Source: Siderastrea siderea
Lineage: Eukaryota; Cnidaria; Anthozoa; Scleractinia; Rhizangiidae
Length of the DNA stretch: 64,000 bases
Assembly (NCBI GenBank): GCA_964030785.1
Contig: OZ034968.1
Location: 52,547,730 to 52,611,729 of the forward strand
Reading direction: 5' to 3'
Position 1 is the stretch's first letter. Every line of letters starts with the position of its first letter. Below the pieces are notes generated by a model. That model made no database searches and was not told the origin of the DNA. It worked only from the letters and a program-made list of their open reading frames with translations. The position numbers and the translations under genes are program-made. Positions 13,051-60,498 of this stretch are shown piece after piece.

Positions 13051-13144
13051 TAAGTCTTACCCACTCACTAGCCGGCGTGGGAAGCACTGAAAGGCGAAGG
13101 AAAGAGGGACAAGTCTTAGTTGACCTTCAAGCTTGAGTAGAAGT

Positions 13145-13310
13145 GTGTTTAGTCCATGGCCTATTACCCAGGCCTTCACCTCCTGCTCACTCGACTCGAC
13201 TTGGTGCGAAATGTCGCGACGTCACCGAATGAGGCCCTATGCCATTCGGTGACGTCACGAAATTTCGCGCCAAGTTGTGTGAGCGAGAAGATAACCCCTG
13301 GGTCCTAGGC
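13145..13310. mobile_element. Foldback MITE downstream of the GPCR gene
   Basis: The arms are near-complementary: ACTTGG.GCGAAAT..CG and GACGTCACCGAATG at 13199-13235 mirror CATTCGGTGACGTCACGA and ATTTCGCGCCAAGT at 13242-13276, with a loop of about 11 bases. Weaker outer complementarity runs through ACCCAGG and CCTGGGT. A related solo arm, TTTGGTGACGTCACGAAGTT, is at about 35780-35810. Confidence 0.7.
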
Positions 13311-13403
13311 TGATGAGTCCATATTTTGGTTAACAATTTTGGTAAAACTTTTTAACAAGTTAAAAAGGCTAAACGTTTTCCAACATAACAGATTATCAAC
13401 ATA

Positions 13404-13497
13404 GTGTCAAACTGCTTAAAGAACAGAATCCAGAATCAAATTACTTCTAATTTTAAGCCTATGATATATAACCTCCGTTCTTTAAGCAGTTTGGCAC
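13404..13497. repeat. Hairpin with 21-base arms
   Basis: GTGTCAAACTGCTTAAAGAA (13404 onward) is complementary to TTCTTTAAGCAGTTTGGCAC (to 13497), with about 52 bases between the arms and one mismatch. It lies about 350 bases past the GPCR stop. It may be a MITE end pair or a transcript-level structure. Confidence 0.65.
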
Positions 13498-14060
13498 TCT
13501 GATGATGACCTTTTAAGATCGAACACGTTGAGCATTTGTATTCTGCGAATATGTCTAATATTTTCGACATTTCTGTTTTCTTAGTTAATATGTTTAATTT
13601 TATTTCTCCCCTAAACTACGATCAGTTTATTCTGTTGAAAATTATCACATTCCAATAAACTCCGCATTCACCTTGGTGTCCTAGTAAAACAAAAATAGAA
13701 AGCATGATTGAAAATTATTCAAAATCGCACTTGGTTTTATTGAACTTAGACCTGGATTCCATCTCCATTAACTGCATTGCTACATCAAATGTCTGGTGTA
13801 TGATACTAAAGCCCGGTGCACCGGTTTTTATGTGGCAAAGAAAACTTGCACCTAACCGCAACTTTGCAGGGACCGTGCGAACCCAGTATCTCTTTCTACC
13901 CCGTATTTCGTAATTATACTTGCGTTACTTGAAAAATGAGCCATTTTATTTGTACAGTTAATTGTTACGGACAAGAGCCGAGGTCCCACGGAATAAGAAT
14001 TATTAAAATAACTCCCACTGCTACGGACTTTCTCTTTTACGGAAACCAAATCCTTGTCCC

Positions 14061-15570
14061 GGTAGTGTTCGTTAGAGAGAGATGACTGTAGATGTAATTA
14101 TTCACTTTGTGCAACCTTTCGGCTTTCATTCTATGAGTGCTTACTGCTCCACTGTGCAAAAATGACTGCCGGTGCACATTCCAGGACAGTTGTCCTAAAA
14201 AAGTTTCTCACCCGTGTAAACGGTCAAACCATTTGTCAACATGAAGAAAATTTCCTCTTTTGGACCCGGCTTAATAATACTTAGGCGTTAAGGGGAAAAA
14301 TCATAAAAATCTTGCACCTTTCTTGTGGGTAAAAGAGGAAAATTTGATGACTGTGTAAATTCTAAATGCGTTGGCGGCAGATATATTTCTGGGTGAGATT
14401 GTAACATCACGATTAACAAGAACTGAAAATCATGTAACTGTTTATTATAGCTGTAGAAGCTATAGAAAATGTTGCAAAGGAAATGATGGAAGCAATAAGG
14501 CTAATTGTTGTTTATTTCTCCACACCGTGCAGAGTTGTTGACAGGCTCTCAGTACCAGAGGTTATTATTGCAGTCCGTGAGGTGGAACAGGAGGCCATTA
14601 TCTTTCCTTAATTCATCCTTTCATTGTTTTAAATGGGTTATTATTTTCAATAATCCACCTTAATACTCAATGAAATGAAACCAGAGGTTAATTATTGTGA
14701 TCACTAAGGTGACCACAGTAACCTCTTATTTCAACCCACTGATCTTCGGACATGCGTGCTGTTTAAAACAACGAAAGCGTGCATTAAGTGAAAAATTATG
14801 ACTTCCTGCTCCACGTCACTGATCGCAACAATAACCTCTTGTTCCATTTACCTGCTCAAAACAACGAAAGGGTGTTTAAATGGGGATTTCATTAAATGAT
14901 CGACGGATTCTTAATTTTGAAAAGCGAAAAGCCATTCTTAGGCAAATTCTGGTGTCGACATAGGTGTTTTGCAAGAAACTTATGGTTCTCGAGAGGTGAA
15001 AATATCTGGGGGAATCAACGGAAAGATGATATGTTCTTCTCGCATGGTAGCTGTCACAACAGGGTGTTCTTGTACTCAGTAAGAGACAATGTTAGATGTA
15101 ATCTATCAAGGTAGACTCTTAAGGGCGCTACATTTTCAGGATTCACCGAAAGTCTGATCTTTTTTAAAGATATATGAAATTGCAATAACAGTGATTGATC
15201 CTCTCCCGAATACTTTAGCTATTCTGATACGTGTAAATGATAATTTAGTTCCAACATATCTCCCGACTATTCCTGTAGAAAAACAAAGCACGCCTACTGC
15301 TAAAGAGAAGCTATCTGCGAGGTATCAGAACATAGTTATTGACTGGAAAAGTATATATTTGTTATCTTTTCGCACAACATTAGCTACAATTGAGACTTAG
15401 AGAATTCCAGTTTAAAGTTTTAATCGTATTGTCCTAACAAATGAAAAACCGTTTTCGTTTTGGCATTGTTGAATTACCAATCTGTGCTTTCTGCCAAACT
15501 GCAGGGTATCTTCTGAATTTCGGAAACACGTCTCGTCCTGGCTGCGAGGTAATAATATCTGTGAATAACA
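14061..15570. other. Stretch with a small inverted repeat, no gene seen
   Basis: AGAGGTTATTATTGCA at 14555 mirrors GCAACAATAACCTCT at about 14825, marking a foldback of about 300 bases with related CCAGAGGTTAATTATTG and CAGTAACCTC motifs inside. Frames such as 14896-15114 and 15191-15400 show no domain. Confidence 0.45.
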
Positions 15571-29407: not shown

Positions 29408-31380
29408 AGAGCGTTTACATTCACGTGACCAGAATCTATGCAAATTTATTGAAACAAGAAGAAGCGTTTACATAAGAAAGGACTTCAAATCCCACAGAAT
29501 TGGCATGGGACACCAACATGGCCGCCATTTCATTGTTTTGGGACACCAACATGACCGCCGTGACGTCATGTGAAAACCACAGGACACCCAAGCATAATAT
29601 TTGAATATTATTAAAAATGGCGTTTCAAAATATAAGACTTTGTATGGGATTTCGAAGCGAACATTTTGAGCAATACAAAACAGCAAACTAACTGAATAAA
29701 GTTCATGAAACATTACATGGTGTTGTTTGCTATCCTTACAACGCATTTTGAGCAATTTTAGGTCCATTTACTTTACTGTGTTAGTACGTGTATAATACAT
29801 TGACAAGGAAGGAGTCATTTGGCCCGATTTAGCCACTATCACCGCTCGACACGTTTCGGAATTCGCTCGAATTTACCCACAAATATAGTTCAGGCTCCCA
29901 TTCTGACTTAGCGACTTGACAAAAGGAAGACATACAAGTGATTTTTTCAAAATCAATTGCACATACCTCGTGTCCCAAAAGAATTATCCACTGCACAAAA
30001 TCATAATAGCATCTCAAAATAGGCCGCCAGGGATGTGTGAGGATCACGATAGCCCCGTTCGACCGCGGTCGGCACTGGACACCAGTCAAATCATGCCCTT
30101 ATGGGGAGGGCCACGCTCGTTTTGAGTCGTGTTACAATTTTGTAGTAACTATGACCAGGTGCGGACATAAGATTGTCGCTCCGACGCAGTCTGGTTCGCG
30201 TGAGAAAATCGCTGCGTGTTACAAGCGGATAGCAAAAATAAATCCTTCCCATTTCTGAATTTATATCCCTTTTTAGGGTGTATATTTTCTTGTTTTTTTA
30301 ATAAGTAGGTTACCTGACCGGCTTCATACAAATATAGAAATAGATATAGTATATACAATAACAATTTTAAAATAAAACATTTTCACGCGCGTGAGGATAT
30401 GAATTTAAATGAATTTGCCGACTTCAGTTCGAAAAAAAATATCTGATATATAAAACTTATCGACGATTGAAATTGAACACATTTAATTCACGCAGAGTAC
30501 GTATTTAAAATTTACGCAGTAGACTGACCTGTATTACAAACGTTTTGTACATGAACGCAAATATGTTCAATTTACCACGCATGAATAGAAACATTGGAGG
30601 AAGGAGAAACACGGTTCACTTTCTTTTTTTCTTGACTCGTTTTCATTTTCTAACGGCCAAGACCGTCTTAATTTCTTTCGATGACTTAATTCTCTCCACA
30701 AGGTCACGGAGTCCCGCGCAGCGATTCCACCTTTCTCGCGCGAACCAGACTACGTTGGAGCGACAATTTGTGTCCGCACCGGGCCATAGTTACTACAAAA
30801 TTGTAACACGACCAAAACGAGCGTGGCCCTCCTCATAAGGGCATAATTTGACTGGTGTCCAGTGCCGACCGCTGTCAAATGGGGCTATCGGGATCCTCAC
30901 GCATCCATGGCGGCCTATTTTGAGATGCTATTATGATTTTGTGCAGTGGATAATTCTTTTGGGACACGAGGTATGTGCAATTGGTTTTGAGAAAATCACT
31001 TGTATGTCTTCCTTTTGTCAAGTCGCTAAGTCAGAATGGGAGCCTGAACTATATTTGTGGGTAAATTCGAGCGAATTCCGAAACGTGTCGAGCGGTAATA
31101 GTGGCTAAATCGGGCCAAATGACTCCTTCCTTGTCAATGTATTATACACGTACTAACACAGTTAAGTAAATGGACCTAAAATTGCTCAAAATGCTTTGTA
31201 AGGATAGCAAACAACACCATGTAATGTTTCATAAACTTGATTCAGATAGTTCGTTGTTATGTATTGCTCAAAATGTTCGCTTCGAAATCCCATACAAAGT
31301 CTCATATTTTGAAACGCCATTTTTAATGATATTCAAATATTATGCTTGGGCTTCCTATGGTGAAAACGCTCCACAGAAAT
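29408..31380. mobile_element. Palindromic element, about 650-bp arms
   Basis: The left arm, about 29563-30215, and the right arm, about 30715-31370, are close reverse complements around a spacer of about 500 bases. For example, CACTTGTATGTCTTCCTTTTG is present in opposite orientations at 29930 and 31000. The outer ends both carry AGAGCGTTT/AAACGCTC (29409; 31366-31374), resembling a MITE family with an ACATGGCCGCC..GTGACGTCATGTG interior (29516-29574). The arms are more alike than those of the 2.9-kb palindrome, so it is probably younger. Confidence 0.8.
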
Positions 31381-33176: not shown

Positions 33177-33231
33177 AGTTCGATAACTGCGTGGTTATCT
33201 TCTCTTACTAAGATTTACGTTACTTTTACAG

Positions 33232-33502
33232 GACCCTGATCAATTATCTTCTTGTAAACCTTGCAGTGGCGGATCTGATGGTAGCCGTATTTTTCTCTCC
33301 ACTGCACATTTTCATTCACACATTCACTCATCCAGACGGGGTCGCTGGAGACGTGTTATGCAAAACACTGACAGGCAGAAACTTGGGATGGCTCGGAGGT
33401 TCCTCCTCTGCTTTCACATTGGTTGCTGTAGCTATTTAACGTTACTACGCAGTGAATTATCCCCATAGCAACAAAGGAAAACTTACTCATGGTAAACTAA
33501 AG
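33232..33502 (+). pseudogene. GPCR pseudogene exon 2 with in-frame stop
   Basis: The acceptor TTTTACAG and donor AAG|GTGGGT are intact. The frame runs through NLAVADL and the TM3 Cys, then TAA at 33437-33439 replaces the GAA of the ERF box. Confidence 0.9.
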
Positions 33503-33640
33503 GTGGGTAGGGGTTGTGATGATGATAGCGACTTTTTTCATGACAATCATACTGATAAAACTAGTCTAAAATTGATTGTATTTTCAACTAGAAAAAGCGT
33601 ACGGTGTATTTCTGTGACTAACTCTTCAGTGGGGCTTATC

Positions 33641-34012
33641 TATACCGTCGAAGCTCTCCACAACGGCCACCTTGAGGACAGAGGCGAGTGGCCGTTGTAG
33701 GGTGGCCATTATGAGGAGGTAGGGACGTAACATTACACCACTTTTGGAGGGAACGGATAGAACACTTTTATTTTTAAACATGCTTAATATAGTATATTAA
33801 ATACATAAAATGATCAAAACTATATCAGAAACAACTATTTAAAACAAAAACATCAACGAAACAAAGCGAGTATTGTACAGTGAGTCCGTCAGTTTGTAAA
33901 TTGTTCGTTTTGGAGAGATCATTTGGGCAGCTGGGATGCACTTGAGTGGCTGTTGCTGTTATGGAGAAGTCGCCGTTGTAGAGAGGTGGCCGTTAGTGGA
34001 GGTTCGTCTGTA
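33641..34012. mobile_element. MITE in GPCR pseudogene intron 2
   Basis: Copy 1 reads CTTATCTAAAATAGTTACC with no insert. Here 372 bases intervene, starting TATACCGTCGAAGCTC and ending GAGGTTCGTCTGTAATA. The ends are imperfect inverted repeats of about 31 bases sharing CGGCCACC. A TA target is likely. Confidence 0.8.
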
Positions 34013-34078
34013 ATAGTTGCCTCAGCTTTTTTTCCCTTTGATTAGTTTTAACTAATAATTTCCAATTTTCCATTTCAG

Positions 34079-34333
34079 ATAATTATACCTTGCTGCTGGA
34101 TCTTTTCGATGATTATAAATATCCCAACTTTTCTGGCCAAAACGTTTGATAGGAACTTATCGTCCTGCGTTGAGAAGTTTCCACAGATGTGGATGGGGAA
34201 GGCCTTCAGTATGATGTGGCTTTTAGTCTATGGTGTTCTTCCCTTGCTCATAATGGTTTCACTGTACTCCTCTGTCGTGTACAGTCTGTGGTTCAGACGT
34301 CGAACTGCCAACGAACTATCTGCTCAACAGAAT
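34079..34333 (+). pseudogene. GPCR pseudogene exon 3
   Basis: Acceptor CATTTCAG, donor GTAAAT; 255 bases, open in the expected frame. Encodes TM4 and TM5 with changes such as TINIPTF-type residues in TM4. No exon 4 follows. Confidence 0.85.
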
Positions 34334-35337
34334 GTAAATTATACGACGATTTTTGCAGTAAATTGCTCAATAACATGCGTTTTAATGCCTCTTAATGTCA
34401 AAAACCTTGAAGGCTTTCCTAAATAGGGGGAAATACCTTCAAGGAAAATATTAATTCTGGCAATTTGTCCAGTATTCGTAATCTCTGGGAATAAAAACTA
34501 AATTTGTCGGCTTTTGCTGCTCAAGCTTCCGAGGTAATCCCGCTCAAAAAGGCGGATTTATGTTTTACTGCATCTAAGATGCTTATTGAAGAAACGGAAT
34601 CTCCAGCTTCTTTGGAATCTGCCGTCATCCAAACCCATCTATTTGGCCGAGAAGGGCTACTGAGCACTACGCTGTAACCTTTTAAGTCGTCAGAGTAGAC
34701 TTGAGGCGGGTTACCTGTTTTGCCCTACTAACCGTAATGTATGCCAAACAAGTATTTCTGACCATGTGGGATATTTCTGACCATGTGGAAATGTCTTTAC
34801 TCCTCTTTTGTCCGGTGATATATTGGCTTACATTTTAAGGCTTGGATGTATAGCATAGATATTTGTGTGTCTCAGTATTAATGGCTACGTTTGAACAGAC
34901 AACTGGTGCTATAAGTGACTAAGTCCTACTTGCTTTTATTGAACTTAGATCTGCAATCCACGTCCATTAGCTGCAAGCTACATCAAATGTCTTGTGCATG
35001 ATACCAAAGCCTGGCGCGCCGGTTTTTATGTGGCAAAGAAAATTTGTCATATTATGTTAATTTGCTCCTGTAGGTGACTTGTCAAAGAACATTTGAGAAG
35101 GATTTTTGGAAATTAGTTCCCAGAACCTCTGTTCGCGCCTTTTTGTAGTGTATTTGCCGCCCAACCGGGTCACTTAGTCGTTCCAGGTAGTTTCTATCGG
35201 CTCAGAACACTACAAGCGGCAACTTTGCAGGGACCATGCGAACCCAGTATCTCTTTTTGCTCCGTATTTGGTAATTAAACTTCCCTTGACTTGAAAAATG
35301 AGCCATTTTATTTGGAAAGTCAATTGTTACGGACCAG

Positions 35338-35580
35338 GGGTGCGTTTCTCGAAAGTCCCAGTAGCTTTCTGAGCCCGGAGCTATAATTTAAAATCAAAAT
35401 CTATAGAATGATATGGTGTAGCCTTTTACCCGCAAATCAGCTCGTCTTGTTTCCTGAACTTACAATTTCACTGATTAGCTTTTAAAAAATAGCAAAATTT
35501 AAATCTTTAAGGTAAACCTCGTTCTCTTAAACTAGCTTTTCGGGCTCGAGAAGTTATCGGGACTTTCGAGAAACAGGCCC
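35338..35580. mobile_element. 243-bp MITE with 22-bp inverted repeats
   Basis: The left end GGGTGCGTTTCTCGAAAGTC mirrors GACTTTCGAGAAACAGGCCC at the right end. CAG flanks both sides as a possible 3-bp target duplication. The empty site in copy 1 is at about 13971. Confidence 0.85.
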
Positions 35581-35700
35581 CAGAGCCGAAGTCCCACGGA
35601 ATAAGAATTCAAGACTAAAATAACTCCCACTGTTTCGGACTTTCTCTTTAACGGAAACCAAATCTTGGTCCCGACGGTGTTCGTTAAGGGGAAAAATCAT

Positions 35701-37479
35701 AAATATTTATTCGAGTTTAATCTCTTTCATTTCATGTTTTTGTGATATTCGTAGCGAAAAACCAGAGGCGGTACGCCATTTGGTGACGTCACGAAGTTTC
35801 GCGCCTGGCTACGCCCAGCTACTAAGCTAGCGAAAAACCATACCTTCAAAAAGAGACAGTAGTTATTTTCCACAGTGTTACTGCTCTAGACAATAGCTTA
35901 AGTGAATTGCGTTCTGTAATGAGCATTTCTTATGGCTAGCACTGACTTACTGACGCACTGCGTTTCTGGTACAGTAGAACGCCGTCAATCCAGAGGCAGT
36001 TATAATTATTTCCGTGGGGACTTTGTTGTAGCTAGGAGCAACATGGAACCACCAGCTAATACAATACTGTACGTAGTGTATATATCGTTAAATTATTGCT
36101 AGTAATAGTTTATAACTAAGATACACAACTCCATAAGCCTTACGATTTAAACTACAATCGTGTTTAGATAAAGGTTATCTAACCATTTATCCATCCATCC
36201 AATAACTTACGGTTTTTTAGTCAATCCATAGTAAATCTTGCTCAGAGAAGTTTTGTTGTAATTATAGCTAACTGCAGACAAACAAACGATCAGCAGGCAG
36301 ATAATAGACTCGTGTGCGACTCAATTATAAGTAACTCGTGTACAAATCTGTTCATTACTTCAGCACTACTTTAGTGGTTACAAACTTGAGGAATAAGGCG
36401 TTGTTAGACTGAAGTTTACTTATCCATGCTTGCCAGAAACTCAAATTAACAAGGTCTTGTGAACTTTTCAAGATCAAGACGACGAAAGGTAACGGGTTCT
36501 GATGAGAAATCAGAATCATATCGATAAATTGTGACTTACACCGAACTTCATCATATTCCGCACTGTTGGGTGGTGGTGGGCGGCCATCTAAAGCACTCCA
36601 AACCGGTCTCCTCGAAATCTCTAAAACTGAAACACAATTCTAACTAAAAATAAATGTTGTAGCTAGAGCCCTAAAAGTAGTCTGTCTACATGCCGGAGCT
36701 GAGACAAAATAGTCTGGCGATGTAGCAAGGGACCCTTAAACATGTCGCATTTCTGATCTAAATGTTCACTTGTAAACAGTCATCGAATTGGTAATTATTC
36801 GTAGGCAGGTTCGTTAAAGGCTGTTTGCTGGATAGCATAAGAAGTTTGTTAACTCTTCCAAATTTTTTTGAGTCTGGGACCTTTGAGACATACTGGGTAA
36901 ATAAAGGATTAATCAAGTTGTCATTTACTTTAATAACAAAACGCTATGGGGAAAATTTGTTTTTATTTCATGTAGTCAACTGGACAAAGAAACGCACAGC
37001 TCCCAAATTTGAGCTGGTCATTACCAATTCAAACTGTTTACGATTTTTTTTTTATTTGAAGCATTCCGGAAGCATTCATCAAACGCTCGTAAGGTGATCT
37101 GTAAACGTTTTCAGAAGAAGTCAGAAATCTTTGTTGATCTTCGGAGGTCTTCGGGTTAGTGCGACCACTGACCTTTATTTTTAATGTTCCGGGGATGTTC
37201 CTAGATGTTTCGAAGGTGTTCCAGGGGTGTTCCGAGGGAATTCCAGGTTTTACATTAACTTCGTGCGTGTATTCATTATTGTGGTCTTTCATGCATGCAA
37301 ATGGCTGCTGTGCTTTTCTATAATACAAACAACTCTTTATCACTGTTCAGGACCTCTCTGATCACCGTTTAAATGACTTCCTCGAGAGTACTGTATTGTC
37401 TCAGATGATCTCCGATGATCATCGCGGCATAACCGTAATAGTCCAGCCATATGGTGTAAAAAAATTGTCCAATTGCGCA
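35701..37479. other. Intergenic stretch
   Basis: A solo fragment of the 13.2-kb foldback MITE lies at about 35750-35830. The rest has only short frames (for example 36825-37097) with no domain. The duplicated GPCR segment ends near 35700. Confidence 0.4.
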
Positions 37480-38269
37480 CTTTGGGGTAAAAGCACCAAA
37501 CTCGGCACAATTATAGTACTAGATAGACTGATCATTTTAGCTATGGACCCCATCCAAATACATACCGGGGGAGGCACAATGTGCCCTCGGGGGGAGGGGT
37601 TTGGCCGTTTTGTTCTCAAGTCCATCTATATGGTGAAAGAATGTGCACTTAGGGATAAAAGCACCAAATTTGGCATGGTAATAGTACTTACGTTACTAAA
37701 CAAAATTGGCTATGGACCCAGGCAGATTTTCTGTTAGGGGGAAGAATTTTGCACTGAGGGGTGTGGGGTAGTTTCAATTTTCAAAGAAATTGCTGCAATT
37801 TAAGAGAAAGCTGTAATGTTAACCCGAATTTGCCATATTAGTAGGGCGTGATGTCCTAAGGAAGTTCATCTATGTCTCTACCTATATTTTTTAATTAAAA
37901 GGGGGAGACAACTTAGGGGGGATGGGTGGTAGTATTTATTTTTGTATTTTCATATTAGCTTCTCCTGTGAAGGAAAAAACAATTATTTGTCTTTAAAACC
38001 GGGAGAATAATAATTCACTTAGAGAACAACGTTAATGTTATTTAATCTCATCTTAACCGTTAACCATGTACAGAAATTAACCTCTTTAGGGGATGCATCT
38101 GCAATACTGCGAAATGCTACAAGTGTTAGTTTAAATGCAATGATGTAGACAACCATATAAGGTTAGGAGGGTTGTCCAATACACCCGCACCATAACGGAT
38201 CGTGAGCCTAAGGTTTCGGTGCGTATAGATCGTTCGCTCCGTAAACCTCACACACGGTCCGTTTTGAAG

Positions 38270-38640
38270 AGTTGACTTTCTCTTTCGTGTACCTTGATCC
38301 CTTTGTCTTGCCTTGGTTACAGTCCGCTAATAGAATGCTGTTATCACTTTGCGCAACTCTCATAGAACGAGTAATAGACATGTTTCTCTTTCGTGTATCT
38401 CATCGCCTTGTCTTGCCTTGAACAGTCCGCTAATACAACCCTGTTATCAGTTGGACAACGCTTATAGAACGAGTAATCGACATATTACCGTTTTCTCTTT
38501 GGTGCATGTCGATCACTTTGTTTGTCTCTTGGCGAGTTTTCTTTTAGAACCCTGTAATCACTTTACACAATGCTTATAGAACGAGTAAAACAATATTTCT
38601 GTCTTCCCTATCTTGTATATCGATCGCTTCGTAAATGCGC
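38270..38640 (+). repeat. About 112-bp tandem repeat, three units
   Basis: Each unit contains TTTCTCTTTCGTGTA-like, TTGTCTTGCCTTG, TATCACTTTGC and CTTATAGAACGAGTAA. The units diverge toward the right. No coding role. Confidence 0.75.
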
Positions 38641-38689
38641 TTAGATAAGGAGGTGTAATCATACTTTTATTATTGATGTGTACCTCTAC

Positions 38690-38995
38690 ATACGGACTGT
38701 GAGCCGCAAATAACGGACCGAAATCAAGGATGACGGTCCGTGCGAAACGTACGGACCGTCAATCACAAACAATGATCCTAAGCAAGAATGAAGGACCGTA
38801 CGAAACCTACGGACCGTCAACAGGTGGCCCTGGTGTGATAATGAGATGCACGATCTGTATTCGGACCGTAACCAAGAAAGACGGCTCGTGCGAAACGTAT
38901 GGTCTGTCAACAGCAAATAACGGTCCGTAGGCAAGGATGACGGTCTGTGCGAAACGTATGGACTGTCAATCGCAAATAACGGTCCATCTGGTAAA
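38690..38995 (+). repeat. About 60-bp tandem repeat with a hairpin in each unit
   Basis: About five units built on ACGGTCCGTGCGAAACGTA followed by CGGACCGTCAA. ACGGTCCGT and ACGGACCGT within each unit are complementary, so every unit can fold. Part of the left arm of the 37.5-43.8 kb palindrome only. Confidence 0.85.
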
Positions 38996-39297
38996 GTCGT
39001 TGAGCTTAATCCTCTCCCTCGCATTTGCAAGGCTAGCGTAATACAAGACATTCCAGCTTTTGCACACACAGCTCTGCACACAGAGCTCTGCACACACAGT
39101 TTCCATTTCTGAAGCTCCTGGCATACTTTTGATGCTTCAAGTAGGGTAGTCCACCGAGACTACCATGCATCTGACTTGGATTTTGTCCATCCCCATTCAC
39201 TAGGGGAAGGTAGTTCAGGATTAGAAACCAAACACTGTCCCCATCAATGTTCAGCTTGGTATGCCACTCTCTTTGTGTGCTGTAATAATGCTGCATC
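38990..39297 (-). pseudogene. Cys-rich repeat-family coding block, inverted copy
   Basis: The minus strand retains EWHTKL, then in another frame SEWGWTKS-like, RWTT, EASKVCQEL and CAKAGMSC, ending in a Gly/Arg tail. It is the mirror copy of 39338-39745 and is broken by frameshifts. See that entry for the family. Confidence 0.55.
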
Positions 39298-39337
39298 AGC
39301 AGTGGGGGAAGTTTTTCCCTTCTTACATTAGCCTACT

Positions 39338-39745
39338 ATGCAGGATGTCCTAGATGCTATGCCTGTGCTTGAAAGATTTGTAGTTCTGATGTATGACCGG
39401 ACAAGCCAGTCCCAAAGAGTCAATGACGCCAGAAAAGTTCTACTTGCACAGAAGGAAAGAACCCTTGAGAACATTAATATTTCTCTACTGCTGATGCATT
39501 ATTACAGCACAACGAGAGAGTGGCATACCAAGTTGAACGTTGTTGGAGGCAGTGCTTGGTTTTTATCCTGAGCTACTTTCTCCTAGTGAATGGGGATGGA
39601 CAAAATCCGAGTCAGATGCATGACAGCCTCGGTGGACCACCCTACCTGAAGCATCAAAAGTGTGCCAGGAGCTTGCGAAATGTGGGTGCAGAGCTGAGAG
39701 GCTGCAAAGGACGATACAAATGTGCAAAAGCTGGAATGACAGTGC
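39338..39745 (+). pseudogene. Cys-rich repeat-family coding block (broken)
   Basis: The first frame reads VLERFVVLMYDRTS, VNDARK and LLAQKERTLENI. A shifted frame gives EWGWTKSESDA, a TGA where Trp is expected, RWTTLPEASKVCQEL and CGCRAE, and a third frame gives GCKGRYKCAKAGM. The closing KCGGECEGED is at 40878-40912, beyond a LINE insertion. From memory, this order of motifs recurs in uncharacterised cnidarian and fish proteins; I know of no function. Spaced Cys pairs suggest metal binding. It is carried on both arms of the 37.5-43.8 kb palindrome. Confidence 0.55.
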
Positions 39746-39749
39746 AATT

Positions 39750-40860
39750 GACAGTGTTGCATTAAAAACAAGTAGAATCAGTGGAGTCATCGCTCGTCTC
39801 AGGCACTTCGTTCCTCCTATTACTCTTTTAAGTATCTATCGTTCTTTGATATTGCCTTACTCGTCCTCTGGTTTGGCTGCTTGGGGTCAAGCTGCTAAAA
39901 GCCAAATACAAAAAATCCTTGTGATACAGAAAATTGCCCTTTGTTTTATGTATTTTTCTAAACCCAGAGCTCATGCCGTGCCTTTGTTTATTTCCTCAAA
40001 AATTCCTCCCTTAAATACTGTATGTTATATGTCGAAACAGTATCATCTATTATGTTTAACGTCTCCCATATGACTGTGCCGCCTAACATCAGTGATCTCT
40101 TCACCAAAGCTGAAGGAAAGCATATATGCATATGCAAGTTCTCTTCCTCTGGTAACTTTTACATCACAACCTCAAGATTGAGTCAAACTCAAGGGTCTTT
40201 TGCCAGGTTTGGAGCTAAGCTTTGGAACTCCCTCCACGACAAATTTCGTCAACTCCCCAAGAGTGCTTTTAAAAAGGATGTTCAAAATATGCTGCTTTCG
40301 ATACTGGAGGCTGAGGATGACTATGTTAAAGCGCAGAAATTTGCAAAGTATGTGGTATAGCTGAGATCAATTTTCCTATTTTTTGTATCCTTACTTCCTC
40401 TCCTCTATTACTTCTGTTTTCTGTAATTCGTGTAATTTTTGAATGCAAATTCCTAAAAGTTGCCATGGCCAATTAATGTATGTAGTTATTTAGTATTTAG
40501 TATGCTTATTTAGGGTGGAGTCATTTGTAGCATATACGTGTAGCTGTCGCTTTAGCGCGTGGGAATTTTCTTTTGTTTTTTTTCGAAAAAACAATAGAAA
40601 ATTCGCACGAACCAAAGCGACAACCATACGCGTATGTGCCGCAAATGAATCCACCCTTTTAAAATTGTAATTGTATTTGTGATTATTTAGTTATCCTTAT
40701 GTAATTGTGACTGCTGTACCTTTATAACTCCGCCCGCCTCGATTGGCTTCCGCTATTTGCGGGTGGAACTATATCTTAGTACTTTATGATTTTTGTATTT
40801 AATAATTTATGTATTTTTGTGAATTTTGTGTGAATAAACTTGTGTGTGAATGAATTTGTC
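39750..40860 (+). mobile_element. Non-LTR retrotransposon fragment (reverse transcriptase C-terminus and 3' UTR)
   Basis: The frame to 40073 carries RISGVIARLRHFVPP, LLSIYRSLILPYSSSG and LAAWGQ, the thumb-side end of a LINE reverse transcriptase. The following frame 40022-40360 continues with NFYITTSRLSQTQGSFARFG, AKLWNSL, LPKSAFKK and EAEDDY. A frameshift separates them near 40050. An AT-rich 3' region ends AATAAACTTGTGTGTGAATG. The element is 5'-truncated, as usual, and sits inside the Cys-rich block. Jockey/RTE-type clade by look only. Confidence 0.8.
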
Positions 40861-41434
40861 TTGCACTGCGCTTTACAAATGCGGTGGGGAATGCGAGGGA
40901 GAGGATTAAGCTCAACGACTTTGCAAGATGAAGATCACTGACCTTACATGGTTGTATACATCATTGCACTTAATCTAACTCTTGTAGCATTTGAAATATT
41001 CGAATATGACTCAAAATGCTGCTAAGATCCTTGACAGTGTTGTAGATGCATCCCCTAATTAAGTTTTTTACATGATTTAACGGTTAACATGAGATTAAAT
41101 AACATAAACGTTCTATAATTATTTAGTTTTATTTCATAAAATTGTTAATTATCAGATATTATACAAAACGTGATTGTGCATTCTATGCCGAGGTGCACAG
41201 CCCCCCCCCCCCCCACCCCCCAACTCCACCATGGAGGATGCTCTCGCATGAGGCCACAGGAGAAACAATTCGCTAAATGAATTATAATTCTGTTAGTTTT
41301 CAAGGCAGATTATTGTTTTTCTTTCACAAGGAAACTAAAACGAAGATACAAAGAAACATGCTACCATCCCTCCCCCCTAAGTTCTGTTCCCCCCCTTTTA
41401 ACAAAAAAACTAGGTTAACACGCCCTACTAATAT

Positions 41435-42607
41435 CAGACGTACTCTGATGCCTTCGCACTGCCTCATGGGGTACCTCTAGGCTCTTGTCAAGGCCCTCTA
41501 TTATTCACGATGTACGCAAGTAAACTCTTCGAGGTTGTCAAGAGTCATCTTCCAGAAGTCCATGCTTATGCAGACGACACCCAGATATATCTATCGTTCC
41601 TGCCGGATTCCGCGGCAGGGGAGCAGGATGCTATCGCTGCTCTTCAAGATTGCATCACAGATATTAGGAGTTGGATGACTGCAGATAAGCTAAAACTGAA
41701 CGATGATAAGACGGAATTTATGATTATAGGCACGCGCGCTCAGCTAGATAAGGTTAATGTATCTGAAACTTTGGTCGGCCATACAAAAGTACCTACTGTA
41801 ACGACTGTTAGGAACCTCGGGGCGTGGTTAGATGCGAATCTTACCATGTCTGCGCATCATAGAAATAAAACGTGCCAATCTGTTATCTATCATCTGCATA
41901 ATATTGGACGTATTAGAAAGTATTTGAGTTACGATGACAGGAAATCCATAGTTTAAGCAGTTATAATGTCACGGATAGATTACTGCAACAGCCTCTTGGT
42001 TGGTGTTCCAGCCGTCCAGCTAAGTAAGCTACAACGTTTACAAAATGCAGCAGCTCGCCTTGTTAGCAATGTTGCAAAGTATGATCACATTACTCCTACA
42101 CTTGTTAAGCCTCATTGGCTCCCAGTACGGTTTAGGGTCATTTTCAAGATAGCAATGCTTGCTCATAACTGTATCTATGGCAATGCGCCTGAGTACCTTA
42201 GGGGACTAGTCAAAGTTAAGAGGACATCCAGATATCATCTTAGATCGGACGGGGGTATGTTACTAGAGGACTACAGTGCACGATCAAAGAAGACACTATG
42301 AGACAGGGCTTTTAAAACAGCAGCACCCAAAATCTGGAACATTTTACCGGAGGACATTAGAATGCAGGACAATTAAAATATTTTTAAGGGACAGTTGAAG
42401 ACTCACTATTTTAGACTTGCATATAATTTTTAACTCTATATAGGTGCACGTAATTTTTACTCTCTTTTAATTAGTTTTAATGACAGAAACATACACATTT
42501 CCTTTTCGTTATATTGGTAATGCGCATTTGATCATGTATGTATGTTAATTTGCGCAATATAAAGTAATAAATATTATTATTATTATTATTATATTATTAT
42601 TATTATT
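41435..42607 (+). mobile_element. LINE fragment with YADD motif, 5'-truncated
   Basis: One reading frame runs from HGVPLGSCQGPLLFTMYA (about 41460) through AYADDTQIYLSF (catalytic YADD), LNDDKTEFM and SRIDYCNSLL to AAPKIWNILPEDIR. It has stops at 41954-41956 and 42299-42301 and near 42375. A 3' UTR leads to a (TTA)n tail at 42570-42607. AATAT at 41430-41434 and 42608-42612 is the target-site duplication, and the mirror arm gives the empty site. CR1/L2-like by look. Dead copy. Confidence 0.9.
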
Positions 42608-42928
42608 AATATGGCAAATTCGGGTTAACGTTACAGCTTTCTCTTAAATTGCAGCAATTTCTTTAAAAATTGTAACTACCCCACCCCCCTAAGTGCAACA
42701 TTCTCTCTCCTAGCAGAAAATCCGCCTGGTTCCATAGCCAATTTTTTTTTACTATTACCATGCCAAATTTGGTGCTTTTACCCTAAAGTGCACAATTTTT
42801 TTCACTATATAGATGGACTATAGAACAAAACGGCCAAACCCCTCCCCCCCAAAGGGACACTGTTCCTCCCCCGGTGTGTATTTGGATGGGGTCCATAGCT
42901 AAAAATGATCAGTCCATCTAGTGCTAAT

Positions 42929-43747
42929 ATATAGATTTAGCCAAGCCTAAAAGCTGAGCCCCCCTTTTTGTTTTGTCTGTTTTTGTTTTTTTTGTTTTTT
43001 TTGTTTTGTTTTTGCTGGCAGTTATTAATTTGTGAAAATACTCTCATTCAAGTCGTTAAATTAAAAAAAAAAAAACAAAGAAAAAAAAGAAAAAAAGTAC
43101 CTGCTCCCGCTGAGTGTTGAACCCGGCTCGTTGGCGTGAGATGCCAACGGTCCACTTGGCCACAGTGAAAATGCTGGTGTTTTTCCTGGCAAAATGTGGT
43201 CGAAACGCCGTAAAAACCATGGTTGTGGACAGAAAAAACCAAAAAGCACTAGCTCTGCTATATTTGGCGTCGAAACCGCTGCGAACAGCTGCGAACTCAA
43301 GCGGTGTGCCGACCGAGTTTGAACAGAACCGACGAGGCAAATTTGAACTTTTTGCCTGACAAGTTTATCGTCTAATTTCTTTCGCCTAAATTGAACTTTT
43401 CCCCTTCCACCAAAAAGACAACTAAGTGTTCTTTTGAACTTTTTTTTTCCATTAACAAATTCGTTTTTGACTTTTGTTGTCTTTACTTGTTTTGCTACAA
43501 CGCGGGTCAACATGCGATTTCGCGCCAAGAACACACGGGATTCAGCACAGGGTTATATCCAGTGTATGAAGTGTATTGGTAGCCCTCTGGTGCGGACGGA
43601 CGGACGTACGGATGTACCGATGTAGGGAAGTACGGACGGATGGTCACGTGACTATTACGTCACTACCAAAATTTTTTGGCTTGATAGGTTACCAAATTTC
43701 CTTAGCAATGGAGCTCCGCTGACGCGCTAGCGCGCTGGCTCCGCTAT
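42929..43747 (-). mobile_element. tRNA-headed element A
   Basis: One end is ATAGATTTAGCCAAGCCTAA, the other GCTAGCGCGCTGGCTCCGCT. Between them lie T- and A-rich tracts, a tRNA-like segment (43101-43163), a coding-like block (to about 43534 on the minus strand), a tetranucleotide CGGA/CGTA run and GTCACGTGACTATTACGTCA. It interrupts the right arm of the big palindrome, so the other arm gives the insertion point. Closely similar to 45104-46001 and 56641-57510. Confidence 0.8.
43101..43163 (-). other. tRNA-like segment in element A
   Basis: On the minus strand an A-box-like TGGCCAAGTGG, an anticodon-arm-like GGCATCTCACGCC and a B-box-like GGTTCAACAC. The better preserved copies have GGTTCGACAC. 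Degenerate; not a functional tRNA gene. Confidence 0.65.
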
Positions 43748-43839
43748 CACTGTGCCGAGTTTGATGCTTTTATAAGATGTGACTACAATCAAGATCCTGC
43801 TATTTGTAAAGTTACTAAAATAAACTATAATGAAAAAAC

Positions 43840-44476
43840 AGTAAAGAAAAAACGACGAGCGAGTTGGTTTTCCCGATATTTCGGACAGTCAAGCCGTCCT
43901 TCTTCGGGGGATTTAATGAAAATACGGATAGTCGTTATAATATGTAGTAAAACGGTTACAGTAGATATATGATACGATTGTTTGGAATTTAAAATTATAA
44001 CAAGCCAGTGAGGACGACATAAAATTACCATGAATAAACAAAGAGAGGTGTAAAAAAAAAATAAAAAATAAAAAATAGTAATAGTAAAGAAGAAAAAGGG
44101 ATTAATAGTCATCTTCTCTGTTTATATGATGTGGTTGCATAGTTTTGGCCTTATCTATATAAAATGATTCGCGAGCTCTACGTATGGATTCTCTTTTAGA
44201 AGTAATGAGTTCGAGTGGAATGAGTTCGATGTCCGTGAGTTTGTGTCCTTTTTTATTAAAGTGCTGCAGTACTGCATCGGTGGTCTTGTTTTGTATGGCT
44301 CTACGATGCTCTCCAAATCTGTCACGTAGTGCGCGTTTTGTTTGTCCGATGTGTTCTGCTGGAGCATTTGGAGTGTTTTTACATTTTCGACATTGGATCA
44401 TGTAGATGAGGTTTTTGGATGCACAAGTGATTGTTTGCTTGATATGATGTACTTGGCCTAAGTTTTGAAAGTACAT
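43840..44476 (-). mobile_element. Penelope-like element 3' part: GIY-YIG endonuclease and end motif
   Basis: Minus-strand frame 44102-44476 encodes a GIY-YIG nuclease domain. NLIYMIQCRKCK is the GIY strand, HIGQTKRALRDRFGEHRR holds the YIG-like strand (HIG) and the catalytic Arg, and HFNKKGH and SIRRARESFYIDKAKT follow. This is the C-terminal domain typical of Penelope-like retroelements. Downstream, GAAGAAGGACGGCTTGACTG then TCCGAAATATCGGG forms the usual short stem of such elements. The reverse transcriptase is missing here; a separate fragment lies at 48.2-48.6 kb on the same strand. Confidence 0.85.
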
Positions 44477-44483
44477 GATGATA

Positions 44484-44540
44484 GCCTCCCACGCAGTCGT
44501 TTTTAGGCGACTCGTATTTCACTCCCCTCCTCAAACGCCT
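44484..44540. repeat. Inverted repeat partner of 46239-46296
   Basis: GCAGTCGTTTTTAGGCGACT and CGTATTTCACTCCCCTCCTC mirror the sequence around 46240-46290 with a few changes and a length difference in the G/C run. The pair brackets 1.7 kb holding element B. Confidence 0.7.
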
Positions 44541-44747: not shown

Positions 44748-45103
44748 CTGGTAAACCAGACCTAATCAGCCAAAGAAATACTCAAATGACAAACATAACA
44801 GCAAGGCTGATCTGACTACGTAGAAAGATTTGACTTTGCAAGACATCAACACGACACTAATAGAACTTCAACAGAGCAGGGTTGCAGCCGTAGACAGCTG
44901 CTTCGCTCTTCTTAGAGCTCATCAGTAGGGCATAGCAAGATGGCGAAAATGCCGTAAAAATACCCGTGCACTCTGTTGAAAGCCCTGAACGAGGACGCAC
45001 GCCCACCAATCACGCCATCACGTGTCTTGGAAAGGTCGAGAGTCCAAGTGTCGTGTTGATGTCTCGCAGAGCCAAAGATAGGATGGACAAAACCAACCTA
45101 AAT

Positions 45104-46001
45104 ATATAGATTTAGCCAAGCCTAAAAGCGGAGCCCCCCCCCCCCTTATTGTTTTGTCTGTTTTTTGTTTTGTTTTTTTTTCGTTTTTGTTTTTGCTGGC
45201 AGTTATTAATTTGTGAAAATACTCTCATTCAAGTTGTTAAATTAAAAAAAAAAACACAAAGAAAAAAAAAAGAAAAAAACTACCTGCTCCCGCTGGGTGT
45301 CGAACCCGGCTCGTCAGGGTGAGATGCCGGTGACTAGTCCACTAGGCCATGGGCGTTTAACGTTACATCCTAAGCTAATTTTAATACTTAATTTTTTCTT
45401 CGTAACAAGCTGCCTATCAGCATGAAAATGCTGGTGTTTTTCCTGGCAAAATGTGGTCGAAACGCCGTAAAAACATGGTTGTGGACAGAAAAAACCAAAA
45501 ACCAGTAGCTCTGCTATATTTGGCGCCGAAACCGCTGCGAAAAGCTGCAAACTCAAGCGGTGTGCCGACCGAGTTTGAACAGAACCGACGAGGCAAATTT
45601 GAACTTTTTGCCTGAACTTTATCGCCTAATTTTTTTCGCCTAAATTGAACTTTTCCCCTTCCACCAAAAAGACAACTGAGTGTTCTTTTGAACCTTTTTT
45701 TTCCATTAACAAATTCGTTTTTGACTTTTGTTGTCTTTGCTTGTTTTGCTACAACGCGGGTCAACATGCGATTTTACGCCAAAAAGACACAGGACTCAGC
45801 ACAGGGTCATATCCAGTTTAGGAAGTGTACTGGTAACCCTGTGGTGCGGACAGACGGACGTACGGATGTACGGACGTACGGACGGACGGACGGACGGTCA
45901 CGTGACTATTACGTCACTACCAAAATTTTTTGGCTTGATAGGTTACCAAATTTCCTTAGCAATGGAGCTCCGCTGACGCGCTAGCGCGCTGGCTCCGCTA
46001 T
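45104..46001 (-). mobile_element. tRNA-headed element B
   Basis: Full-length relative of elements A and C, with the tRNA-like part at 45293-45355, the coding-like block 45417-45767 and a long CGGA/CGTA run at about 45845-45897. It ends GCTAGCGCGCTGGCTCCGCT. An imperfect 22-base direct repeat lies 1.4 kb apart outside it (44691 and 46085). Confidence 0.8.
45293..45355 (-). other. tRNA-like segment in element B
   Basis: The best-preserved A-box (TGGCCTAGTGGACTAG) and B-box (GGTTCGACACC). The anticodon-loop-like ATCTCAC would give CTC, a Glu anticodon. The acceptor stem does not close well. Confidence 0.7.
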
Positions 46002-46102
46002 AAAGAAACAGGGATAAAACCATGCTATAAAGAACAGCGTATCGGATCTATAAAAAAGACCTACGGTCCAGAAAACATACATACAGTAGAACAATATCAG
46101 TA

Positions 46103-48187: not shown

Positions 48188-48600
48188 CTTACTTTTGCTT
48201 TTACCAGGAAATCGCGGAGGTTGCGTGGGCGTCTGTAGGCGATGAACAGTTTTCAGAAAATACTTCTTTGCAACGGTTTGAAGACTGAGGTATGGGAAAG
48301 TGTTTAGAAATGAACTTGTTAAGGATTTGAGAAGCTGGATTGTAGGTGACTACGAACGGGATGCCTTGGTTGCATTTGTTTTTTTGGGACGCTTGGTTTT
48401 AGGGCTTGATCTCGCAGGACTTGTTTAGCTTTGTTGATCTCACGTAGGATTAGTTTTTCCTTGTCACCTCTTTTCTTTAAGTGTTCGGCGAGTTCATCAC
48501 AGCGTTTGTTAAATGCGGTGTTATTTGAACAAATGCGGCGGAGGCGTAATCCAAGACTGATTGATGCTTGTACCCCGAAGTGCACAATTTTTTCACCATA
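48188..48600 (-). mobile_element. Penelope-like element reverse transcriptase fragment
   Basis: The minus strand reads LRLRRICSNNTAFNKRCDEL, AEHLKKRGDKEKLI and then, in the next frame, IPFVVTYNPASQIL. Another shift gives NRCKEVFSEN and then AYRRPRNLRDFLVKAK. This is the order seen between the reverse transcriptase core and the GIY-YIG domain of Penelope-like elements. At least two frameshifts make it dead. Its outer edge abuts a scrap of the 37.5-kb palindrome arm. Confidence 0.75.
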
Positions 48601-49167
48601 TGGTTGGACTATAAGTCGACAAGCAAGAAAGCTAGATTATGAGCGTTTATTAGTTCTCACATGTGTATGAAAGAAAAATTCGGTCATTTATAATTCCTAA
48701 ACAGCTGACAAAGCCAGTCATCGGAATGGCAATTTTTTTCCCGCCACATTCGCAAAAGCGTGATAACGTGACAGAACAACAAAGCCAATAAATCGCCAGG
48801 GACCTGGTCACGTGACCTACGTATCTCGAGTGCCTTGGAGCGAGGTTGCAAAGTGCAAAACCAGCTGAGTTGTGTTGTGTTTTGTTTCGAGTTTTCAGTT
48901 TTGTGGTTTCGTTCACAAGGTTTATAAATAAGCATGCGGTACATCCCCTGTCTAACGGAAGGAAGATGTTTTGTTCCAGCTCAATGCTGTGTACAATACA
49001 AGACCAGCTGTCCGCGGCTCTTTCAACTGGGTACAGCTTTTCGTGCGGCGGTTCGAAGTTGCTCGTTTCCTCGAAGCCCTTCAAGATACAACCTTGAAGA
49101 CTTACATGTGGACCACAAATCACTAAAAATCTGCAGGTAAGATTCTGTTCCTTGATAATTGGTCATA
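48601..49167. other. Stretch with overlapping frames, no supported gene
   Basis: Minus frame 48650-49123 (157 codons) and plus frame 48846-49097 overlap. Neither shows a domain or convincing codon pattern. Confidence 0.35.
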
Positions 49168-55812: not shown

Positions 55813-56640
55813 TTAATTAGCATGTGTACTGATGCATATATCTAGAAAAACATTTTCCTCAATGATCTTGATAACTTGTTCAATGCATTCAGTCCCAAGC
55901 TAATCCTAATGATTGTCCCATATTCTTTTACTTGAGAATTTTAGAGTTCATCAAAGCAGTGCCCTAGTCTGGCTGGTTATTATTGTCTTCTATGAACTTG
56001 AAATTGATTTACCTGTTAGGAGAAATCTGATATGTCTTGGGCTTGGTTCATGCGATCAATAATGCCTGGCTTTCTGAAGTTATTTCTACAGGGTAAATTA
56101 AACCAGATACCGATTTCTTTTGGATTGTAGACTGTATTGTTCTTAAATTGCTATCTTGGATTATTGTTTGTTTGCCCAGGCTTTCAAACAATTGAAATGA
56201 TATGAGGTAGAGAATCACTGAAGAATCTGTTGTAGAGTTTCAACCAAGTACTGTAAAGTGAGTCTTAAATTTGGGGTCATATTGACCTGAGGTTTCCAGA
56301 GTTTTAGAGTTCAAAACAGAAATGTACATTACTTTTTTCTCCTTTGGATAATAAATAATAGTGTTACTACAGGAGCTATGCCACATGACTCAACCTAAAA
56401 AACAATAAATTAGCCTGGTAATTTTTTCACCTTGATCATTTTTAAATTATTATTTGTCCCAATCTTCTCTTGTCCTAACCTTCCATGTTGCTTTTCTATC
56501 CATCTTATGTACACTAGTTATATCAGCTGTACATATAACAATAACATGAGATTTACTGCATGGGGAAGTGTTCACACGTAGGGAAATATTCCCATTTTAT
56601 TCCCAACTTTCAGAACAATTGGGAATAGTAAATCCCATTT
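55813..56640. other. Stretch without a gene
   Basis: AT-rich with short frames. From about 56570 it holds GGGAATA..TCCCATTT units that resume at 57520 after the inserted element C. Confidence 0.4.
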
Positions 56641-57510
56641 TAGCGGAGCCAGCGCGCTAGCGCGTCAGCGGAGCTCCATTGCTAAGGAAATTTGGTAACC
56701 TATGAAGCCCAAAAATTTTGGTAGTGACGTAATAGTCACGTGACCGTCCGTCCGTCCACACCAGAGGGCTACCAATACACTTCATACACTGGATAGAACC
56801 CTGTGCTGAATCCCGTGTGTTTTTGGCGCGAAATCGCATGTTGACCCGCGTTGTGGCAAAACAAGCAAAGACAACAAAAGTCAAAAACAAATTTGTTAAT
56901 GGAAAAAAAAAGTTCAAAAGAACGCTTAGTTGTCTTTTTGGTGGAAGGGGAAAAGTTCAATTTAGGCAAAAGAAATTAGGCGATAAAGTTCAGGCAAAAA
57001 GTTCAAATTTGCCTCGTCGGTTCTGTTCAAACTCGGTCGGCACACCGCTTGAGTTCGCAGCTTCTCGCAGCGGTTTCGACGCCAAATATAGCAGAGCTAG
57101 TGCTTTTTGGTTTTTTTCTGTCCACAACCATGGTTTTTACGGCGTTTCAAACCATTTTGCCAGGAAAAACACCAGCATTTTCATGCTGATAGGCAGCTTG
57201 TCACGAAGAAAGAAATAAGTATTAAAATTAACTTCTTCAATAACGACAAATGCCCATGGCCTAGTGGACTAGTCACCGGCATCTCACGCCGATGAGCCGG
57301 GTTCGACACTCAGCGGGAGCAGGTACTTTTTTTCTTTGTTTTTTTTTTTAATTTAACGACTTGAATGAGAGTGTTTTCACAAATTAATAACTGCCAGCAA
57401 AAACAAAACAAAAAAAACAAAAAAAAAAACAACAACAAACAAACAAAAAAACAGTGTCAGACAAAACCAAAAGGGGGGCTCCACTTTTAGGCTTGGCTAA
57501 ATCTATATAT
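56641..57510 (+). mobile_element. tRNA-headed element C
   Basis: Opposite orientation to A and B: AGCGGAGCCAGCGCGCTAGC at the left and CTTGGCTAAATCTATATATT at the right. It contains the GTCACGTGACC block, a short CGTCCGTCCG run, the coding-like block 56817-57218 and the tRNA-like segment 57252-57322. It is inserted in a tandem array of GAGAATATTCCCATTTTAT-like units that lies on both sides. Confidence 0.8.
57252..57322 (+). other. tRNA-like segment in element C
   Basis: A-box TGGCCTAGTGGACTAG, anticodon-arm-like CGGCATCTCACGCCG (CTC, Glu-like) and B-box GGTTCGACAC with the usual spacing. Not a functional tRNA: the acceptor stem is poor. Confidence 0.7.
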
Positions 57511-57513
57511 TAT

Positions 57514-60234: not shown

Positions 60235-60498
60235 TGCCAGGTACAGCCTGATATAATATGTTTTGTAGAACTGAAGATATGACTTTTTATATTTGGGGTA
60301 ACTGAGGGTTCAAAACTTTGACTGAATGATTTTGCCTTATTAAAGAGACAGTATTTTACAATCAGGTTTCCGTTCAAGGAGTATATTGATTGGTAATATC
60401 GGGACTCTTTTATATTGGGGATTTGGGTCACCACGTTTTGGTCATTAACTTTTATTAAAATTAGTGGCTCCTAAAAGAGCCGTTTTGGTTTTTGGGAA

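Follow-up and report, generated by a model that had tools for sequence, protein, structure and literature searches.

A palindromic transposon family of the coral Siderastrea siderea that carries the 3' end of its own kind of transposase gene twice, in mirror image

Here we ask what produced the palindrome of about 6.3 kb that lies in a stretch of 64,000 nucleotides of the Siderastrea siderea genome (the window: the whole stretch analysed, at positions 52547730-52611729 of contig OZ034968.1, our contig C3; the genome searched comprises 831 Mb in 402 contigs), and why each of its arms carries a piece of the same cysteine-rich (Cys-rich) gene. A preliminary description of the window had taken the palindrome for a large foldback transposon, possibly of an undescribed family, that had captured a gene. 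We conclude that the window element is an old, broken copy of a DNA transposon holding the 3' end of its own gene in mirror image, twice, and that it very probably belongs to a family of non-autonomous AcademX-type elements descended from a founder in which the element's own 3' end had been copied, in inverted orientation, to a place behind the 5' terminal repeat.

Comparison of the window with itself confirmed the mirrored arms. Region 36900-44400 contains 18 inverted pairs, 15 of them collinear and, by reading, in mirror order about position ~39,400; gapped BLAST gave six arm mirror blocks of 78-95% identity and a 29-bp outer pair at 90%, and the top inverted match reached 400 bits, whereas none of 100 first-order Markov controls of this region exceeded 41 bits. 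Once four pieces that are inserted or specific to one arm are excluded (38167-38984 in the left arm and three right-arm insertions), the arms are identical at 867 of 1,001 positions (86.6%), a count that takes in some unmatched outer flank, and the later insertions can indeed be recognised by comparing the arms, as had been proposed. The limits first given, 37480..43768, needed correction, as the left end lies at 37439, with the sequence 5'-TAGTCCAGCCATATGG that is common to other copies, and the right end is truncated at 43772, the right arm lacking its outermost 40-50 bp. The gene blocks do stand in opposite orientations and point outwards from the centre, on the + strand in the right arm and on the - strand in the left. 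The layout is as follows.

37439..37843, + strand: terminal inverted repeat of the 5' type, a C-type end reading 5'-TAGTCCAGCCATATGGTG..., with a sharp end common to copies; its 5'-type indel is also found in the intact 6-kb element
37844..38166, + strand: inner left arm, an inverted copy of the 3' subterminal region, mirroring 40938-41112 and 41269-41434
38167..38984, + strand: internal filler with ACGGACCGT-type tandem repeats, belonging to the family's 5'-type arm; ~750 bp lost in the window copy
38985..39303, - strand: decayed copy of the gene 3' end in the left arm, inverted, matching residues 1411-1501 of the intact frame
39304..39737, + strand: centre of the palindrome together with the decayed gene 3' end of the right arm, which matches residues 1362-1409 and 1439-1483 of the intact frame best
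39738..40856, + strand: later insertion, LINE-like 3' fragment (LINE, long interspersed nuclear element) that splits the gene; boundaries +/-3 bp, not in the left arm
40857..41434, + strand: gene end (stop TAA 40907-40909, frame by reading) and right-arm 3' flank, mirroring 38985-39025 and 37887-38166
41435..42603, + strand: later insertion, 5'-truncated LINE with a reverse transcriptase fragment (RVT_1 match); (TTA)n tail and AATAT duplication by reading
42604..42926, - strand: inner part of the 3'-type terminal inverted repeat, mirroring 37514-37843 at 86.8%
42927..43744, no strand assigned: later insertion, ~820-bp repeat with TA duplication and two further copies within the window
43745..43772, - strand: remnant of the 3' terminal repeat, its outermost 40-50 bp gone

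A search of the genome with the left arm (37480-38170) returned 78 matches, with 40 of 113 candidate places scored. The preliminary description had named absence of the outer arms elsewhere as the point that would tell against a transposon; the arms recur, and with them the same outer ends, although the motif put forward as the end, GCACCAAA.TCGGCAC, lies ~50 bp inside the true left end. We drew 20 stretches from 19 of the arm-matching loci, those with paired inverted arms being chosen first, and tabulated 20 loci including the window: two inverted outer arms are present in 13, a single outer arm lies within the stretch in seven, and the gene piece occurs in both orientations in nine (window, L025, L026, L028, L029/L030, L031, L032, L037 and L039). 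The ends read 5'-TAGTCCAGCC or close variants of it, the left ends of L027 and L037 being altered, and the flanks differ between copies except in L038 and L041, whose common flank suggests that a single locus was copied. An identical 3-bp target duplication borders nine of the ten copies with both ends readable (L024 GAG, L025 AAA, L028 ATA, L029/L030 TAT, L031 TAA, L033 TGT, L034 ATA, L037 TTC, L039 GGT), L026 being the one with a mismatch (ACA/ATA). Because the outer arms recur and the duplications are identical in these nine copies, we conclude that the palindrome family transposed as a unit. Seven of the nine two-ended copies measured are 3.1-14.2 kb long, insertions included, which sets the family apart from miniature inverted-repeat transposable elements (MITEs), short non-coding elements of a few hundred bp; the exceptions, L033 (1.3 kb) and L034 (0.45 kb), have shrunk and carry no gene piece. 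Both gene arms are kept in L074, alike in 346 of 410 columns around a 17-bp spacer; the window and other copies have lost sequence near the centre from one gene copy. Elsewhere in the window, a fragment of ~52 bp at 48561-48614, ending GGTTGGACTA, looks like an isolated end of this element or of one related to it.

The two ends of the family are of different types. In an intact relative, described below, the 5' end is ~10 bp longer than the 3' end, directly behind TAGTCCAGCAATATGGTG, and the palindrome family has the same difference, the end to which the + gene points being of the 3' type. On the side of the filler the end is of the 5' type in every copy where it can be read (12 of the 13 loci with filler; in L036 no such end lies in the stretch), and one 5'-type and one 3'-type terminus occur together in nine of the ten two-ended copies. 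The arm types are otherwise equally diverged (C-C 90%, A-A 89%, C-A 89%; 6 and 7 sequences). Since one end of each type was kept, the palindrome is not composed of two 3' ends, and only the inner arm was copied. These data also bear on the view that two separate 3' ends came to lie head to head by chance at the window locus, or that the assembly is at fault, for which one could cite the truncated right end that leaves no duplication readable there; with the same mirrored order at other loci, among unrelated flanks and 3-bp duplications, and with the regular pairing of unlike termini, we find this view barely credible.

The origin of the Cys-rich block was revealed by its relatives within the genome. 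A genome protein search gave 151 matches (150 of 1,262 candidates scored), several in open frames of more than 1,400 codons, and in 15 of the 20 loci returned the terminal sequence of the palindrome family stands behind the gene at 71-74% identity over ~113 bp, the other five (L059-L063) matching inner parts of the outer arm only. Two full copies, L064 (6,045 bp) and L065 (6,051 bp), are 99.2% identical to each other; each has one stop-to-stop frame (1,511 or 1,514 codons), terminal inverted repeats aligned over 404 columns at 95.8 and 96.3%, and a 3-bp duplication (ACA and TTT). The terminal repeats of the palindrome and of this intact family agree on average at 51-52% over the first 420 bp. 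The gene block of the window matches residues 1362-1501 of the intact frame and that of L074 residues 1357-1509, so that the Cys-rich block can be identified, by alignment, as the C-terminal ~150-155 codons of an intact transposon's frame of 1,511 codons. Modelling of that frame predicts three parts: a core resembling DDE transposases, a nuclease of the XPG/FEN type and a Cys-rich tail. The best fold match of the core is the P-element transposase; when PDB was searched by sequence with the alignment of the nuclease, E values were all at least 1, the fold search alone being informative. On contigs C2, C3, C7, C9, C10 and C14 we observed eight frames of 1,144-1,523 codons, uninterrupted by stops over the matched part, which, judged by identity, stem from more than one family. 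These eight open frames, together with the 99.2% identity of two full copies of one family, point to recent activity, and an intact family with two such similar copies makes transposition directly testable.

A capture event, as was first supposed, in which a foldback transposon took up an unrelated host gene, could draw on the presence of the block within long inverted arms at several loci and on relatives that are mostly proteins without names. The block is instead the end of a frame of about 1.5 thousand codons that occupies an intact transposon whose termini are similar, and this frame has a transposase-like core and many genomic relatives (the 1,262 candidates noted above), which makes capture very unlikely; the block belongs to the element's own kind of transposase-nuclease and represents an extension of the terminal repeat rather than cargo. 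A composite reading of the window gene block found 119 relatives among 135 candidates, including proteins of Oculina patagonica (coral) and Chionoecetes opilio (crab), with the pattern LERFVVLMYDRTS...WTTLPEASK...CGCK..C.G.CKC.KA...CTALC. With a longer query of nuclease plus tail, 1,715 of 1,919 candidate database proteins matched, and proteins of mussel, sea cucumber and hagfish are among the 120 matches listed. A large group of mostly unnamed Cys-rich proteins is thereby identified with the C-terminal portion of a transposase-nuclease. In Pfam, neither the window fragment nor any of seven relatives had a match above the cut-off. We rejected a conserved protein function for the Cys-rich fragment, as stops interrupt 12 of the 13 palindrome-family matches listed in the genome protein search. 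Searches of viral and of prokaryote contigs, sets in which the genome of the window itself may be missing, with one peptide pattern each matched two and 64 stretches, respectively, none confirmed as a relative, and a 16-base arm pattern present in 15 viral contigs was put down to chance, no alignment extending beyond 31 bases among the 30 matches listed.

Placing the family into a superfamily requires taking its duplications and its nuclease into account. The nuclease of AcademX is of the XPG type. AcademX makes 3- or 4-bp duplications, a trait tied to its nuclease (PMC10045372). The intact frame has a nuclease of this type by prediction, 3-bp duplications border nine of the ten two-ended palindrome copies and both intact copies, and the terminal inverted repeats of the intact copies share their terminus with the palindrome copies. 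We infer from the nuclease and the 3-bp duplications, rather than from direct comparison with a named Academ protein, that the palindrome family is AcademX-type; it is new as a family, as the preliminary description had suspected, but not of an unknown type. Duplications of 3 bp are not unique to Academ, being also made by EnSpm/CACTA, Harbinger and Zator. Membership in one of these superfamilies, with a nuclease present by coincidence, would agree with a P-element transposase as the best fold match of the core, which fits several DDE families with a helical insertion. We nevertheless hold it to be improbable, because nuclease and 3- or 4-bp duplications are traits of AcademX (PMC10045372) and the termini read TAGTCC, not CAC. 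Academ-1 copies are listed for three species in a coral paper (PMC12005156). As far as texts were available in the literature searched, which left subscription literature and Repbase outside, we found no account of a palindromic Academ family.

How the palindrome arose may be reconstructed as follows. A full-length ancestor would have had terminal repeats and one long gene (DDE-type core, XPG/FEN-type nuclease, Cys-rich tail). The founder may have lost most of this element, while its 3' end, the last ~155 codons with the 3' flank, would have been copied inverted behind the 5' terminal repeat, giving a near-perfect palindrome that kept a genuine end of each type, 5' and 3'. Gap repair after excision would provide a route, in which a broken end bearing the 5' repeat invades a template at the 3' repeat, to which it is similar, is copied inwards into the gene and then rejoins. 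With both termini intact, the palindrome could have been mobilised in trans by a related transposase and have spread with 3-bp target duplications before decaying. The direct parent was not found in the genome searched, where all gene-DNA matches of at least 80%, the window aside, begin at gene position 16 or later. A relic, L075, is closer to the palindrome, at 71% over the gene and 78% over the 3' flank; within the 6 kb retrieved it is single-oriented and without an outer-arm match, and its coding match begins at residue 1302, upstream of the break in the palindrome.

In maize, Mu killer, which duplicates part of MuDR in inverted orientation, acts on its parent family through small RNAs from a hairpin. 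By analogy, a read-through hairpin over the transposase 3' end might feed small RNAs against the parent family, making the palindrome a natural silencer, an idea that we regard as decidedly unlikely. If true, it would fit the decayed L075 being the only closer relative found, and the palindrome family would have outlived its parent. The longest exact match between nine palindrome copies and the frame of the intact copy L064 is 16 bases, and such a silencer would hence hardly be effective on the intact family of today.

Of the two LINEs of the preliminary description, that at 41435-42603 is supported by its RVT_1 match (Pfam, E 2.6e-11), whereas the insertion at 39738-40856 has no Pfam match, was called from arm comparison and is one that we take to be a LINE; inside it lies a self-complementary stretch of ~146 bp (40512-40657, 80%). 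The supposed tRNA-headed element (42927-43744) did not hold up: ARAGORN found no tRNA, a tRNA-like stretch visible by eye is at neither end, and the element is a repeat of ~820 bp with TA duplications in all four copies viewed (42927-43744; 45101-46003; 56638-57512; L025:4951-5804). This repeat occupies the same outer-arm position in two palindrome copies, in the 3'-type arm of the window and the 5'-type arm of L025, reflecting either site preference or gene conversion. We also considered the filler 38167-38984 as a late private insertion, which its presence in 13 of the 20 tabulated loci, window included, rules out; it is longer in several of them. Taken from L026, it matches the intact element over 18 bases only, with no relation found, and inspection by eye of the ~750 bp that L026 has and the window copy lacks revealed no long frame.

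Other features of the window are direct duplicate segments at 11169-14074 and 33178-35686, ~22 kb apart and 87-92% alike, with receptor-like frames (by eye like those of G protein-coupled receptors); an inverted pair at 29576-30216 and 30717-31361 (94% over ~645 bp, ~500 bp apart); a histone 3' stem-loop match at 60443-60486 (Rfam RF00032, 34.6 bits, cut-off 34); and an open frame on the - strand at 44102-44518, without a Pfam match, which by eye resembles what we take to be the GIY-YIG endonuclease of Penelope-like elements.

Among known systems, Mu killer likewise mirrors part of a transposase element; it silences its parent via hairpin RNA, an effect that is hypothetical for the palindrome family. 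Tetris-type foldback elements are linked to tandem repeats. They share the long inverted arms (PMC4079207), and the palindrome family differs in having an identified intact coding relative whose gene end its arms carry. Coral MITEs (CMITE) are also non-autonomous inverted-repeat elements, but small, non-coding and linked to piggyBac (PMC2872659). AcademX (PMC10045372) agrees in the terminal inverted repeats and, through the intact relative, in the nuclease, the 3-bp duplications and, to judge by fold, a putative DDE-like core; the window element differs in that it lost core and nuclease, so that nothing but the end of the gene is left, mirrored in two copies. In Galileo of Drosophila willistoni, a member of the P superfamily, the terminal inverted repeats of some copies include the end of the transposase open reading frame (ORF), and defective forms are ascribed to faulty gap repair and template switching, so that the kind of element seen here is already known (PMC4168063). 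Both have long terminal inverted repeats extended by recruited internal sequence that includes the end of the transposase ORF, and by this analogy the palindrome family appears to have arisen as these Galileo copies did. Galileo has 7-8 bp duplications and an ORF piece of 69 bp (PMC4168063), whereas the palindrome family carries ~450 bp of the ORF end together with the 3' flank and was amplified as a family; because its duplications measure 3 bp, it is no member of Galileo's superfamily. It thus offers a clear case, outside the P superfamily of Drosophila, of terminal inverted repeats that grew inwards over their own gene and of a folded product that still spread.
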